From Thermomonas sp. (GTDB lineage Bacteria; Pseudomonadota; Gammaproteobacteria; Xanthomonadales; Xanthomonadaceae): a stretch of 64,000 nt of DNA. The DNA lies in NCBI RefSeq assembly GCF_029945965.1, contig NZ_JAQSDO010000020.1, positions 267,007-331,006 of the forward strand. Direction: 5' to 3'. Made by a program: the position numbers and the translations under genes. Below, in pieces: positions 23,314-53,553 of this stretch. Position 1 is the stretch's first letter. Every line of letters begins with the position of its first letter. The notes under the pieces were generated by a model that was not told the origin of the DNA, ran no database searches, and was given only the letters and a program-made list of their open reading frames with translations.

Positions 23314-24303
23314 GTGAGCACCAGGGAATTCGAACTGATCGCCCGCATCCGTGCACGCGTTGCGCTGCGCGACGATGTGGTGCTGGGCATCGGCGACGAT
23401 GCTGCCCTGTTGCAGGTGCCCGCCGGCCAGCAGCTTGTGGTCGCGATGGACACGCTCAATGCTGGCGTGCACTTTCCGGAGGACACCGCGCCGGCCGATA
23501 TCGGCTGGAAGGCGCTGGCGGTGAACCTATCCGATTTGGCCGCGATGGGTGCGCAGCCAGCATGGTGCACCTTGTCGCTGTCGATGCCGGAGGCTGATAC
23601 CGCGTTCGTCGACGGGTTCCTGGATGGCTTCCTTGCGCTTGCCAGCCAGCACGATGTCGCATTGGTCGGTGGCGACACCACGCGCGGTCCATTGTCCATC
23701 TGCGTGACCGTGCATGGCTTCGTTGAAGCGGGCACTGCATTGCGCCGCGATGCAGCACGCATCGGCGATGACATCTGGGTCAGCGGTACATTGGGTGATG
23801 CGGCGGGTGGATTGCAGCAGTGGAGAGAAAGAACCGTAAAAGGGGGTCAGAGTGGCCTTTCGCTTGCTAACGGCCACTCTGACCCCCTTTTACGTGCACG
23901 GTTGGATCGACCAACCCCTCGGATCGTACTGGGCCGGGCCCTTCAAAGCATCGCCCATGCCTGCATCGACGTGTCCGATGGCCAGCTCGCCGACCTCGGT
24001 CATCTGTGCAAAGCCAGCGGCGTTGGTGCACAGGTCAATATCGATGCATTGCCTGCTTCCGAAGCGCTTTGCGCGGCCTTCGATCAACAGGTGCGCCAGC
24101 GCCTGCAGGCGACCGGCGGCGACGACTACGAACTGTGTTTCACCGTGGCGCCGGATGCGCGCGCTGCGGTTGATGCGGTTGCGCGCGAGATGGAATTGGA
24201 ACTCACCCGGATCGGCGTGATCATCGCCACGCCGGGCGTGGCAACGCGGACGGCTGAAGGCGCGTGGTCAGCGCCCGCGGCCGGGTGGGTCCATTTCGGT
24301 TGA
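23314..24303 (+). CDS. thiL: thiamine-monophosphate kinase with in-frame hairpin insertion
   Basis: Phosphorylates thiamine monophosphate to the diphosphate cofactor. 329 residues from GTG 23314. Conserved AIRS-family blocks include VVLGIGDDAALL, ALAVNLSDLAAMGAQP, LVGGDTTRGPLSI, ACIDVSDGQLADLGH and TGGDDYELCFTV, so the enzyme looks intact. Between GDAAGGLQQW and RLDRPTPRIVLG, residues about 174-194 are encoded by a perfect 22-bp stem palindrome. It keeps the frame and adds net length to a linker that varies in the family. The 3' end overlaps the opposite-strand SGNH hydrolase gene by 36 bases. Confidence 0.94.
   Translation: MSTREFELIARIRARVALRDDVVLGIGDDAALLQVPAGQQLVVAMDTLNAGVHFPEDTAPADIGWKALAVNLSDLAAMGAQPAWCTLSLSMPEADTAFVDGFLDGFLALASQHDVALVGGDTTRGPLSICVTVHGFVEAGTALRRDAARIGDDIWVSGTLGDAAGGLQQWRERTVKGGQSGLSLANGHSDPLLRARLDRPTPRIVLGRALQSIAHACIDVSDGQLADLGHLCKASGVGAQVNIDALPASEALCAAFDQQVRQRLQATGGDDYELCFTVAPDARAAVDAVAREMELELTRIGVIIATPGVATRTAEGAWSAPAAGWVHFG
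23835..23894. repeat. GGGGTCAGAGTG palindrome inside thiL
   Basis: Arms 23836-23857 and 23872-23893 are exact reverse complements (22 of 22), extended by one more C-G pair to 23835/23894, around a 14-base loop. Each arm contains AGGGGGTCAGAGTGGCC. The whole is 60 bases, or 20 codons, and is open in the thiL frame. The core GGGGTCAGAGTG occurs three more times at 53432-53553 in a gene-free spacer, so this is a dispersed element rather than thiL sequence. Confidence 0.95.
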
Positions 24304-33511: not shown

Positions 33512-35097
33512 CCCGTGCGATGCTGCTGAGCGAGTTGCTGCCGGAGCTCGAGGGCCTGTCCCGGGACCTCGCCATCACCGGGCTGGTGCAGGACAGCCGC
33601 GCAATCCGTACTGGCGATGCGTTCGTGGCGATCGGTGGATTCGGCACGCATGGCCTGGCCTTCACCGAGACCGCGCGCGCCGCGGGCGCCGCAGCCATCC
33701 TGTTCGAGCCACCCGCACCGGACGACCTGTCGGCACCTGACGATGCGATCCCGGTGGTCAACTTGCGCGCGCGCATGGGCGCGATGGCCGATGCTTTCCA
33801 TGGCCAGCCCAGCGCGGCGATGACCACGGTTGGCGTGACCGGCACCAACGGCAAGACCTCGACCGTGCAATTGCTAGCCCAGGCGTGGACGCTGCGCGGC
33901 GAACGCTGCGGCACCATTGGCACGCTCGGCGCCGGCATCTATCCCAATATCGTGCCGACCGGTTTCACCACGCCGCTGGTGCTGCGCCTGCACGAACTGC
34001 TGGCCGAGCTGCGCGACGAAGGCGCATCGACCGTGGCGATGGAAGTGTCCTCGCACGCGCTCGACCAGGGCCGCGTGGACGGCGTGCATTTCGACGTGGC
34101 GGTGTTCACCAACCTCACCCGCGATCATCTGGATTACCACGGCGACATGGCCAGCTATGGCGCGGCCAAGGCACGGTTGTTCGACTGGCCGGGCTTGCGC
34201 TCGGCGGCGGTGAATCTCGACGATGCGTATGGCCGCGAACTGTTCGCTGCGGTCAGCCCGCGCCTGCGCGTGGTCGGTTTCAGTTCGCGTGGCGCCAGTG
34301 GCGCCAGCATCCGCGCCGAAGAGGTGATGCTGGATGCGCGCGGCATCCGCTTCATGCTGCATGTCAGTGGCCAGGCGCACCTGGTGCGCTCGCCGTTGCT
34401 GGGCCGGTTCAATGTCGACAACCTGCTCGCCGTCGCTGCAACCCTGTCGGCGCTCGGCATGGCGCCGGCCATGGTCGCCGAGATCCTGTCGCAACTGCAT
34501 CCCATCGATGGCCGCATGAATCGGTTGGGTGGCGAAGTGTCGGAGAACGGCATTGTCCTACCGCTGGTCGTGGTGGATTACGCGCACACACCGGACGCGC
34601 TGGAGCAGGCGTTGTCTTCATTGCGTGCGCACACCGCCGGCAAGCTGGTCTGCGTGTTCGGTTGTGGCGGTGAACGCGACACCGGCAAGCGCCCGCAAAT
34701 GGCCGCGATCGCCGAGCGCGGCGCGGACGTGGTGATCGTCACCGACGACAACCCGCGTAGTGAAGATGGCGATGCGATTGTCGCCGACATCCTGGCCGGC
34801 TTTGCCGACGCATCACACGCCATCGTGCAGCGTGATCGCGCACGTGCGATCTCTGATGCGATCGTCATGGCCGATGCAGATGACGTGGTGCTGATCGCTG
34901 GCAAGGGCCACGAGCCTTACCAGGAGGTCAACGGTGTTCGCCATCCATTTGCGGATACTTTGGTCGCCCGCGATGTGCTGGGCAAGCGCGCGCAGCACAT
35001 GGATGTGCAAGTGCTGCGTCCGCAGGACGCGGAGAAGCAGCCGCAGCACATGCATGTGCAAGTGCTGCGTCCGCAGGACGCGGAGAAGCAGCCATGA
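33508..35097 (+). CDS. murE: UDP-MurNAc-tripeptide synthetase MurE with duplicated tail
   Basis: Cytoplasmic ligase adding the third residue to the peptide stem. The specificity motif DNPRSED predicts meso-diaminopimelate. 529 residues. Mur domains in order: N-terminal UDP-binding, the ATP loop [12 protein letters not shown] (about 110-121), middle domain with [15 protein letters not shown], and ligase domain with [11 protein letters not shown] and GKGHEPYQ. After the normal end (ARDVLGKRA) it carries two 17-residue repeats, QHM(D/H)[13 protein letters not shown], encoded by a 51-nt tandem duplication. ATGA overlap with ftsI and murF. Confidence 0.95.
34993..35094 (+). repeat. 51-nt tandem duplication at the 3' end of murE
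   Basis: Copies 34993-35043 and 35044-35094 differ at two positions of 51 (G/C giving Asp/His, and the last base). Each contains the short hairpin GCGTCC-gca-GGACGC. The unit is 17 codons, so the frame is kept and murE gains a repeated tail. Confidence 0.95.
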
Positions 35098-36569
35098 CGC
35101 CGCGCACGCTGGCTTGGATTGCGCAGGCTACGGGTGGCCAGTTGCATGGCGCCTATGCAGATCAGCATGTCGATGCGGTTGCGATCGACACTCGCGTATT
35201 GCGCCCCCACCCCAACCCTCCCCCGCTCGCGGGGGAGGGAGGCGAGCGCATCGCGCAAGCGGGTGGGGGAACACTGTTCGTAGCGCTGAAAGGCGAGAAC
35301 TCCGATGGTCATGAGCATGTCGCCGCAGCGGCAGCGGGTGGCTGCATCGCCGCGCTGGTCAGCCGTTGTGTCGATGTCGACCTGCCGCAGGTGTTGGTCG
35401 CTGACACCGAACGCGCGCTCGCCGCTATTGCCGCGGCAATGCAGCGGGAACGCGTCACTAAAATACTCGCGATCACTGGCAGCAACGGCAAGACCAGCGT
35501 CAAGAGCATGCTGTTGCCGATCCTCGAGCGCTGCGGCAAGGCGTATGCGAATCCCGGCAACCGCAACAACGAGATCGGACTGCCGTTGGCGGTGATCGAT
35601 GCGCCGGAAGATGCCGATTTCGCGATTTACGAAATGGGTGCGGGCAAGCCCGGCGACATCGCTTATCTGACCGCGATTGCACGTCCGGATGTGGCCTTGG
35701 TCAACAACATCGCGCCCGCGCATCTGGAGCGTCTTGGTAGCTTGCTCGGTGTGGCTGATACCAAGGCGGCGATTTACGATGCGCTGCCCGGACATGTCGA
35801 TGAAAGGCCGGGCGTGGCAGTGGTCAATGCCGACGACGCGTTTGCGCCGTATTTCATCGAGCGCGCGGCCGGTCGTCGTGTGTTGCGCTTCGGACTGGAT
35901 GCCAGCGCCGAGATCAGCGCGCGCGATGTCCAGCTCGATAGTGATCGCACCCGTTTCATGCTGGTCGCGCCGGATGGCGAAGTCGCGATTACCCTTTCGA
36001 TGCCGGGTCGCCACAACCTGCGCAATGCGCTGGCCGCCGCCAGCATGGCGCTTGCCGTTGGGGCCAGCTTGCAGGAGGTCTGTGACGGTCTGGACGCCGT
36101 GCAACCGGTCGCTGGGCGGCAGGTCAGCCATCGCCTGCGAAGCGGCGCGGTGCTCATCGACGACAGTTACAACGCCAATCCAGGTTCTCTGGATGCAGCG
36201 ATCGAATCATTGGCGGCAGCGACCTCGGCCAAAGACGGCAACGAAGCCTGGTTGGTACTAGGCGACATGCGCGAACTCGGTGCGGATGAAATGGCGCTGC
36301 ACCTGCAGGCCGGCCAGCGCGCGAAGGCGGCCGGCATTGCGCATCTGTATGCGCTCGGTCCGCTGAGTGCAGCGGCGGTGCAGGGCTTCGGCGATGGCGC
36401 GCGTCATTTCGATAGTCACGCAGAACTCGCCGATGCGTTGATCGCCGGACTCGGTGCCGGCATGCGCGTATTGGTCAAGGGTTCACGCGGCAGCGCGATG
36501 GACCGCATCGTCAAACAACTGTTGCAGCACGACGCCGCGAACGAAAAGGGAGAGGTCGATGCTGCTTGA
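35094..36569 (+). CDS. murF: UDP-MurNAc-tripeptide-D-Ala-D-Ala ligase MurF with repeat insertion
   Basis: Adds D-Ala-D-Ala to complete the UDP-MurNAc-pentapeptide. 491 residues, against about 450 for E. coli. The ATP loop [13 protein letters not shown], middle-domain [11 protein letters not shown] and [10 protein letters not shown], and ligase-domain [15 protein letters not shown] are intact. In the N-terminal domain the usual [17 protein letters not shown] is split: DTRVLRP is followed by about 22 extra residues ([20 protein letters not shown]) before [11 protein letters not shown]. The extra segment is exactly a 66-nt nested palindrome (35204-35269). ATGA overlap with murE; 11-base overlap with mraY. 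Confidence 0.95.
35204..35269. repeat. C/G-rich nested palindrome inside murF
   Basis: The outer arms CCCCCACCC (35204-35212) and GGGTGGGGG (35261-35269) and the inner stem CCCTCCCCCG (35216-35225) with CGGGGGAGGG (35230-35239) are all perfect. Total length is 66 bases, 22 codons, open in the murF frame. The left half, CCCCCACCCCAACCCTCCCC, is matched in pieces in the gene-free spacer at 46091-46137, marking this as a dispersed element. Confidence 0.93.
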
Positions 36570-46021: not shown

Positions 46022-46145
46022 ATGCCCCTTCCCCCGCCAGCGGGGGAAGGCTGGGATGGGGGCAACGGGCGCTCTCCTCCCTCTCAACTCACCCCCACCC
46101 CAACCCCAACCCAACCCCAACCCTCCCCCGTAAACAGGGGAGGGA
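46022..46145. repeat. C/G-rich palindromic repeats after ftsZ
   Basis: The first unit has an 11-bp stem CCTTCCCCCGC/GCGGGGGAAGG (46027-46050) with outer TGCCCC/GGGGCA. The second (46091-46145) starts ACCCCCACCCCAACCCC, repeats CAACCC several times, and ends in CCCTCCCC...GGGGAGGG. The second matches the element inside murF. No gene is visible from 45996 to 46390. Confidence 0.85.
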
Positions 46146-46197
46146 GCTGGAACTGCTCCATGTCCCCATCCGGGCCACGCCGGCCCGGACGGTCTTG

Positions 46198-53431: not shown

Positions 53432-53553
53432 AAAAAGGGGTCAGAGTGAAGTTTCCTGACGTAAATCTGGAACGACCGGGTGAAGTAGGCAGGAAATTCA
53501 CTCTGACCCCTTTTTCGGTCAAGTGGTCAGGAAACTTCACTCTGACCCCATTT
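53432..53553. repeat. three-copy GGGGTCAGAGTG repeat cluster
   Basis: Copy 1 on the plus strand at 53432-53458; copies 2 and 3 in the opposite direction at 53490-53515 and 53528-53553. Each contains GGGGTCAGAGTGAA followed by (G)TTTCCTG. Copies 1 and 2 form a long hairpin with one bulge. The core is the same as in the thiL palindrome. It fills the coaE-pilD gap. Confidence 0.92.

Follow-up and report, generated by a model that had tools for sequence, protein, structure and literature searches.

The murF gene of a Thermomonas strain (genome of 3.24 Mb in 20 contigs) lies at 35094–36569 (+) of the window analyzed here, a stretch of 64,000 nucleotides, and encodes a protein of 491 residues with the Pfam Mur ligase middle and C domains, for which E. 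coli MurF (1gg4) is the best solved homologue. Early in the gene sits a palindromic stretch that an initial annotation read as a 66-nt nested palindrome splitting the protein by 22 extra residues, and in which, together with a different repeat in a second gene, it saw a hint that repeats turn into protein segments by a route taken more than once. The questions raised by this locus are what the stretch is, how much of it was added to murF, and whether the same has happened elsewhere in the genus. The original observation is partly confirmed, being right in substance and wrong in its boundaries.

The extra segment of MurF

The distance from the DTR/DSR motif to ALKG is 36 residues in the MurF of our strain, whereas it is 17 or 18 in all 19 sister species examined (those of 24 whose murF locus was compared), from which the insertion is thus absent; the distance from DTR to the VAL-type end is 34 residues, against 14–21 in the other MurFs caught by the pattern. 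When 110 MurF loci were aligned, our gene and 109 others with some genomes present twice, none of the 109 showed a stretch of seven or more residues at the insertion point, which rules out a family-wide conserved insert. Conserved MurF sequence stands on both flanks, including D32, T33 and R34, invariant across 35 MurFs; the insert is therefore internal, and the conserved residues ahead of it rule out an upstream extension or a misannotated start. The N-terminal Mur domain (Pfam PF01225) is missed in this protein, which says little since it is also missed in seven others of the 35. Relative to the sister proteins the net excess is 18–19 codons (54–57 nt) and not the 22 residues first proposed. 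Of this, 39 nt are explained by the repeat unit described below, and about 12–15 nt remain around 35242–35253; the roughly 12 extra nucleotides there, past the repeat, are 83% complementary to 35171–35182, which may be chance. We found no very close sister species, and so no empty site in a close relative that would prove the exact insertion boundaries. Judged from these comparisons, the insertion is a recent one on this Thermomonas lineage. The next match listed in the strain's own genome after murF scores 70.8 bits, against 1051.8 for murF, and the strain therefore presumably lives with the insert-bearing MurF.

The repeat unit itself, which we call REP-A, spans 39 nt rather than 66 (GCCCCCACCCCAACCCTCCCCCGCTCGCGGGGGAGGGAG, 35203–35241, +), with its register taken from the other genomic copies. 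It consists of an unpaired C-rich head of 13 nt (35203–35215) followed by a hairpin of 11 perfect base pairs around a 2-nt loop (35216–35239), the arms of which are CCCTCCCCCGC (35216–35226) and GCGGGGGAGGG (35229–35239). The inner palindrome of the initial annotation is thereby real, and none of 200 dinucleotide shuffles folds as well as the 86-nt segment that contains it, with z −3.64 as DNA and z −4.31 as RNA. A known RNA family was ruled out, the best Rfam match, at 19.5 bits, falling short of the gathering score of 71. The REP-A consensus is free of stop codons in all six frames, but so are 63–73% of shuffles of the same letters; the property is therefore an ordinary by-product of GC content, and a special stop-free design is ruled out.

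By open reading frame, murF runs across the repeat uninterrupted by a stop codon. In an AlphaFold model built on a 35-row alignment (mean pLDDT 90.3), the insert lies between a strand at residues 25–30 and another at 59–63, and pLDDT falls below 50 only at residues 41–56, the insert, and at 487–491; low pLDDT at the insert is expected for any stretch with no counterpart in the aligned relatives. The low-confidence loop thus appears where the initial annotation had guessed it, at residues 37–59, and the repeat very probably encodes a floppy extra loop.

Two further features of this region deserve mention in their own right. A second variable MurF loop, near residue 456, holds SPITNHQSPIT-like residues in four loci (L057, L086, L117 and L128) and looks like translated repeats, and the 3' end of murE (34992–35093) consists of two tandem 51-nt units in frame, with 17 residues repeated just ahead of the stop codon.

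Repeat copies in the Thermomonas genomes

The best further REP-A copy in the genome of the strain is 95% identical over 41 nt (E 2.8e-12, BLASTN with a 73-nt query), and strict patterns find seven hairpins of REP-A type and seven of a sister type with AAGG stems. A covariance model built from 13 REP-A copies gives at least 22 matches with E 0.0011 or better, distributed over at least 14 places, besides three weaker places with E values up to 1; these counts are a lower bound, 150 of 1526 first-look candidates having been scored, and the copies used for building necessarily match the model. Inverted pairs in the order (−) then (+), with the heads facing, account for nine of the 14 places, one partner of the pair in the gene of a 2-oxoacid dehydrogenase E2 acyltransferase reaching only E 0.0025; in three of the nine, the copies are separated by 16 nt and the pair spans 94 nt. 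The murF copy is single. The relative previously placed after ftsZ is found at 46108–46146 (+; G000:C20:313114-313152) and has an inverted partner at 46025–46063 (−; G000:C20:313031-313069).

Scanning the genome for intragenic copies yielded four internal in-frame cases among the at least 14 places, namely murF and, as pairs, hrpA, mfd and the E2 gene; by open reading frame the rest are intergenic or at gene ends, as in an RND adaptor gene whose last residues are encoded by REP-A with the stop directly after. The names hrpA, mfd and E2 come from NCBIfam and Pfam, with mfd and E2 scoring under the NCBIfam cut-offs, which for mfd reflects a locus that stops short of the end of the gene. At least 16 of 25 genomes of the genus have a REP-A match at E 0.001. 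C-rich copies lie in frame in the genes of MetG, an IcmF-type mutase, an olefin beta-lactone synthetase and an ABC-F protein of four sister species; these are four of the best 24 readable sister copies, a set that leaves out four loci too short to read (L177, L185, L188 and L198). Beside two Y1_Tnp genes of the strain there is no REP-A copy within 400 nt per side (one flank being partly masked), and other repeats occur there; with no copy seen flanking either gene, we infer the mobility of REP-A from its copies alone. A pattern for the ATTCCCGC repeat, which we take to be a multicopy family, matched only one locus (L208) among 310.

A second family, GGGTCAGAGTC...GACTCTGACCC, is represented by 28 strict palindromes in the same genome and flanks a Y1 transposase gene of RAYT type (locus L148). 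One of its palindromes (GGGTCAGAGT, 60 nt, 23835–23894) lies in frame in thiL (23314–24303; NCBIfam TIGR01379). This is evidently the first palindrome of the initial annotation, RAYT-linked and distinct from REP-A, and the claim of two different repeat families holds. An in-frame second-family insert of 28 residues is also present in ispA, the gene of farnesyl diphosphate synthase (L315, G000:C6:339394-339465), where it splits an otherwise continuous alignment to the solved homologue 7lbj (query residues 166/195 against chain residues 175/176). Among 22 second-family palindromes in 20 stretches of the genome, ispA is the only host gene identified, the identification having left out five more open reading frames that span palindromes at four sites (L314, L319, L322 and L323).

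Other repeats were seen as well. Three arms of the GGGTCAGAGTGAAGTT family lie at 53432–53550 of the window, those at 53432–53453 and 53494–53515 pairing over 22 nt, and a second Y1 transposase-like gene (L149, G000:C15:810115-810429) stands amid repeated GTAGAGCGCGGCTTGCCGCGC elements, with one stretch masked.

Loops filled or empty in sister species

The loops that carry repeats in our strain were followed through the sister species (genomes G001 to G024, with G000 our own). Of 11 species compared for ThiL, four have this loop filled and seven have it empty; among the filled loops of sisters, the palindrome is matched in the DNA of G024 and G017, while that of G011 is read from the protein only, and the stretches from G018, G007 and G016 are without recognizable thiL. 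In Mfd one loop accounts for 63% of the residues in variable-length blocks (1087 columns). Twenty such loops are readable, of which seven are short (G008, G009, G001, G006, G003, G002 and G013) and 13 longer; six of the 19 delimited in DNA contain perfect stems of 11–22 bp. As judged by eye, there are at least three kinds of filling: C-rich pairs in our own genome, G015, G016, G007 and G005, a TCATTCCCGC...GCGGGAATGA kind in G018, decayed in G010, and an element common to G017 and G011.

HrpA (loci L231–L253) has in-frame perfect palindromes in three separate loops in several sister species, and these loops hold 37, 29 and 22% of the variable-block residues over 1193 columns. The loop near residue 558 (numbering of L231) contains perfect stems of 11–28 bp in eight of 22 delimited cases, its fillings being, by eye, the C-rich family, the GTCAGAGTC/GTCAGGTTC families and a GGGGACGGAGGGAATTAAG element; the loop near 199 contains stems of 20–27 bp in six of 23, and that near 1098 stems of 19 and 26 bp in two of 22. 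The other HrpA loops either are shorter or, though longer, have no long stem. In the E2 linker, C-rich repeat peptides occur in five of 21 proteins (protein reading only). Left out of these counts are the masked Mfd loop of G024 and three cases that the pattern did not delimit: the Mfd stem of G022, the loop near 558 in the HrpA of G018, and the end loop in that of L236.

Placed on a tree of 24 genomes, computed from four joined protein alignments (2986 columns; four of 21 node supports below 0.5), the loop-filling labels, assigned by eye, scatter, as exemplified by the filled Mfd loop of G007 and the short one of its sister G008. This scatter suggests repeated gain or loss of loop repeats. 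Strict GGGTCAGAGTC palindromes fall in hrpA or thiL in three of three cases in G017, two of three in G024, one of two in G005, two of 12 in G022 and one of 14 in G001; the corresponding counts are none of three in each of G020 and G021, none of one in each of G002, G010, G011, G012 and G014, and none of eight in G009, the single strict match of G004 being left out. A refuge effect, by which intact palindromes would survive mainly in genes, is unsupported, with seven low-copy genomes against it.

The earlier proposal of a recurrent route from repeats to protein segments is borne out by REP-A in hrpA, mfd and the E2 gene, by the RAYT-linked family in thiL and ispA, and by the filled loops of the sister species.

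Interpretation and comparison with known systems

We consider it likely that murF has undergone a recent in-frame insertion of REP-A into a loop of the MurF N-terminal domain, and that the insert is translated as a tolerated, flexible loop. REP-A, with copies scattered over the genome, would be mobile, and one copy would have recently entered the loop between two strands of this domain. The frame would have survived because the net gain in length is divisible by three and the repeat, being rich in GC, is stop-free in all frames. The cell would then translate the insert as a flexible loop rich in proline and glycine, which MurF would tolerate. Selection would remove insertions that break the frame or fall where the protein cannot bend, and survivors would hence be met where conserved proteins have flexible loops or linkers.

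The extent of the element allows another reading, in which the whole 66–68 nt (35203–35270) form one nested palindromic element whose right outer arm is the remnant of a second, inverted copy. The nested palindrome of the initial annotation stands insofar as its outer right arm, GGGTGGGGG (35261–35269), is perfectly complementary to the REP-A head over 9 bp, and GCGGGTGGGGGA moreover resembles the reversed head, TGGGGTGGGGGC. Such a remnant would, however, stand in the opposite order to all nine paired places, and GGGTGGGGG is absent after all nine other REP-A copies displayed. Its surrounding codons (CAA GCG GGT) have counterparts in the sisters, for example CAG GCC GGG in G017, and in the protein alignment LPQAGRPLF of G017 faces AQAGGGTLF here; the arm lines up with the codons for Q-A-G of sister murF. 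Removal of 66 nt would furthermore leave a loop 3–4 residues shorter than that of any of the 19 sisters examined. We hold this reading to be unlikely, and GGGTGGGGG probably belongs to the Gly-rich loop of the host murF, as its own Gly codons, its match to the head being fortuitous.

Bypass of hairpins by ribosomes is known from other systems, and the segment might be missing from the protein by such a bypass or by removal. Only the strength of the hairpin speaks for this, while the frame is open and in phase and needs no bypass, and we regard the idea as highly improbable. An assembly or sequencing artifact at a GC-rich hairpin, conceivable for a single assembly in 20 contigs, seems just as far-fetched: the insert belongs to a family found elsewhere in the genome, keeps the frame and has murF on both flanks, and several independent assemblies of sister species contain insertions of a related kind. 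Somewhat less improbable, and still doubtful, is that the insertion is kept for a function, either by a loop that alters MurF or by an mRNA hairpin that adjusts how strongly the dcw cluster is expressed. In favor of this, the segment has good folding as RNA (z −4.31), more than one species has repeats in several of the loops, and the authors of PMC3733652 speculate on altered activity of REP-tagged repair proteins. Against a function, the MurF insert is present in one species only, other loops are empty in sister species, and the target genes have unrelated roles. A tolerated insertion is the likeliest reading.

More tentatively, and with a little less than an even chance of being right, we propose that three loops of HrpA, one of Mfd, one of ThiL, and the E2 linker may be landing sites where unrelated palindromic families settle in frame repeatedly, replacing one another between species and feeding new segments into conserved proteins, with MurF as the newest target. 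Loops that are empty, freshly invaded with perfect stems, or decayed can be compared across about 20 species for which the donor repeats are available, which amounts to a natural experiment on how proteins gain segments. Such a comparison could tell a preference of insertion for loops from survival only there, and could show if the protein sequence contributed by mobile repeats endures.

In-frame insertions of GTAG- and CGTC-tagged REPs in conserved genes are catalogued in PMC3733652, the main text of which also describes different REPs at about the same recB site in two Xanthomonas species; murF, mfd and hrpA are unnamed in that main text, its list of target genes being placed in an additional file. 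As described there, these REPs and REP-A are alike as short multicopy hairpins, in frame in conserved genes and often in inverted pairs, and REP-A, with its 39 nt and 11-bp stem, agrees with the definition of a hairpin-forming palindrome of 20–40 bp. Unlike them, REP-A carries neither tag, the 13-copy alignment ending in GCCCCCA... and ...GGGAG, and it has an unpaired C-rich head of 13 nt. Tagged REPs usually exceed 100 copies per genome, according to PMC2817692, compared with at least 22 matches at at least 14 places for REP-A among the 150 of 1526 candidates scored. The RPE of Rickettsia, an older case of such insertions, about 150 bp long and translated in frame inside unrelated conserved genes (passages of PMC10969869 and PMC3733652), resemble REP-A as palindromic repeats in frame inside open reading frames, here murF, hrpA, mfd and E2; in length they differ from REP-A, whose unit is 39 nt and whose pairs with a 16-nt gap span 94 nt.

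REPINs or BIMEs, inverted REP pairs moved by RAYT transposases as the passages of PMC2817692 on them state, are matched by the two inverted copies at nine of the 14 REP-A places, the murF copy being single. A transposase gene flanked by two inverted copies, the trait of RAYT-associated REPs, was not found for REP-A within 400 nt per side of the two Y1_Tnp genes of its own genome, where one flank is partly masked; the second family, GGGTCAGAGTC, does flank the Y1 transposase gene of L148, as RAYT-linked repeats do. REP-A behaves like a REP, and we do not file it under GTAG/CGTC or RAYT REPs because it has neither tag and no copy was shown in the flanks of the Y1 genes. Among the best matches in the open-licence PMC literature, neither Thermomonas nor the HrpA and Mfd loops are reported on; the peptide PHPNPLP has no literature match there, and the best matches to CCCTCCCCCGC look unrelated by title. 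In-frame insertions of REPs and RPE are thus already published, and what seems new is the untagged REP-A and, as the interesting part, the finding of the same loops filled again and again by unrelated repeat families.
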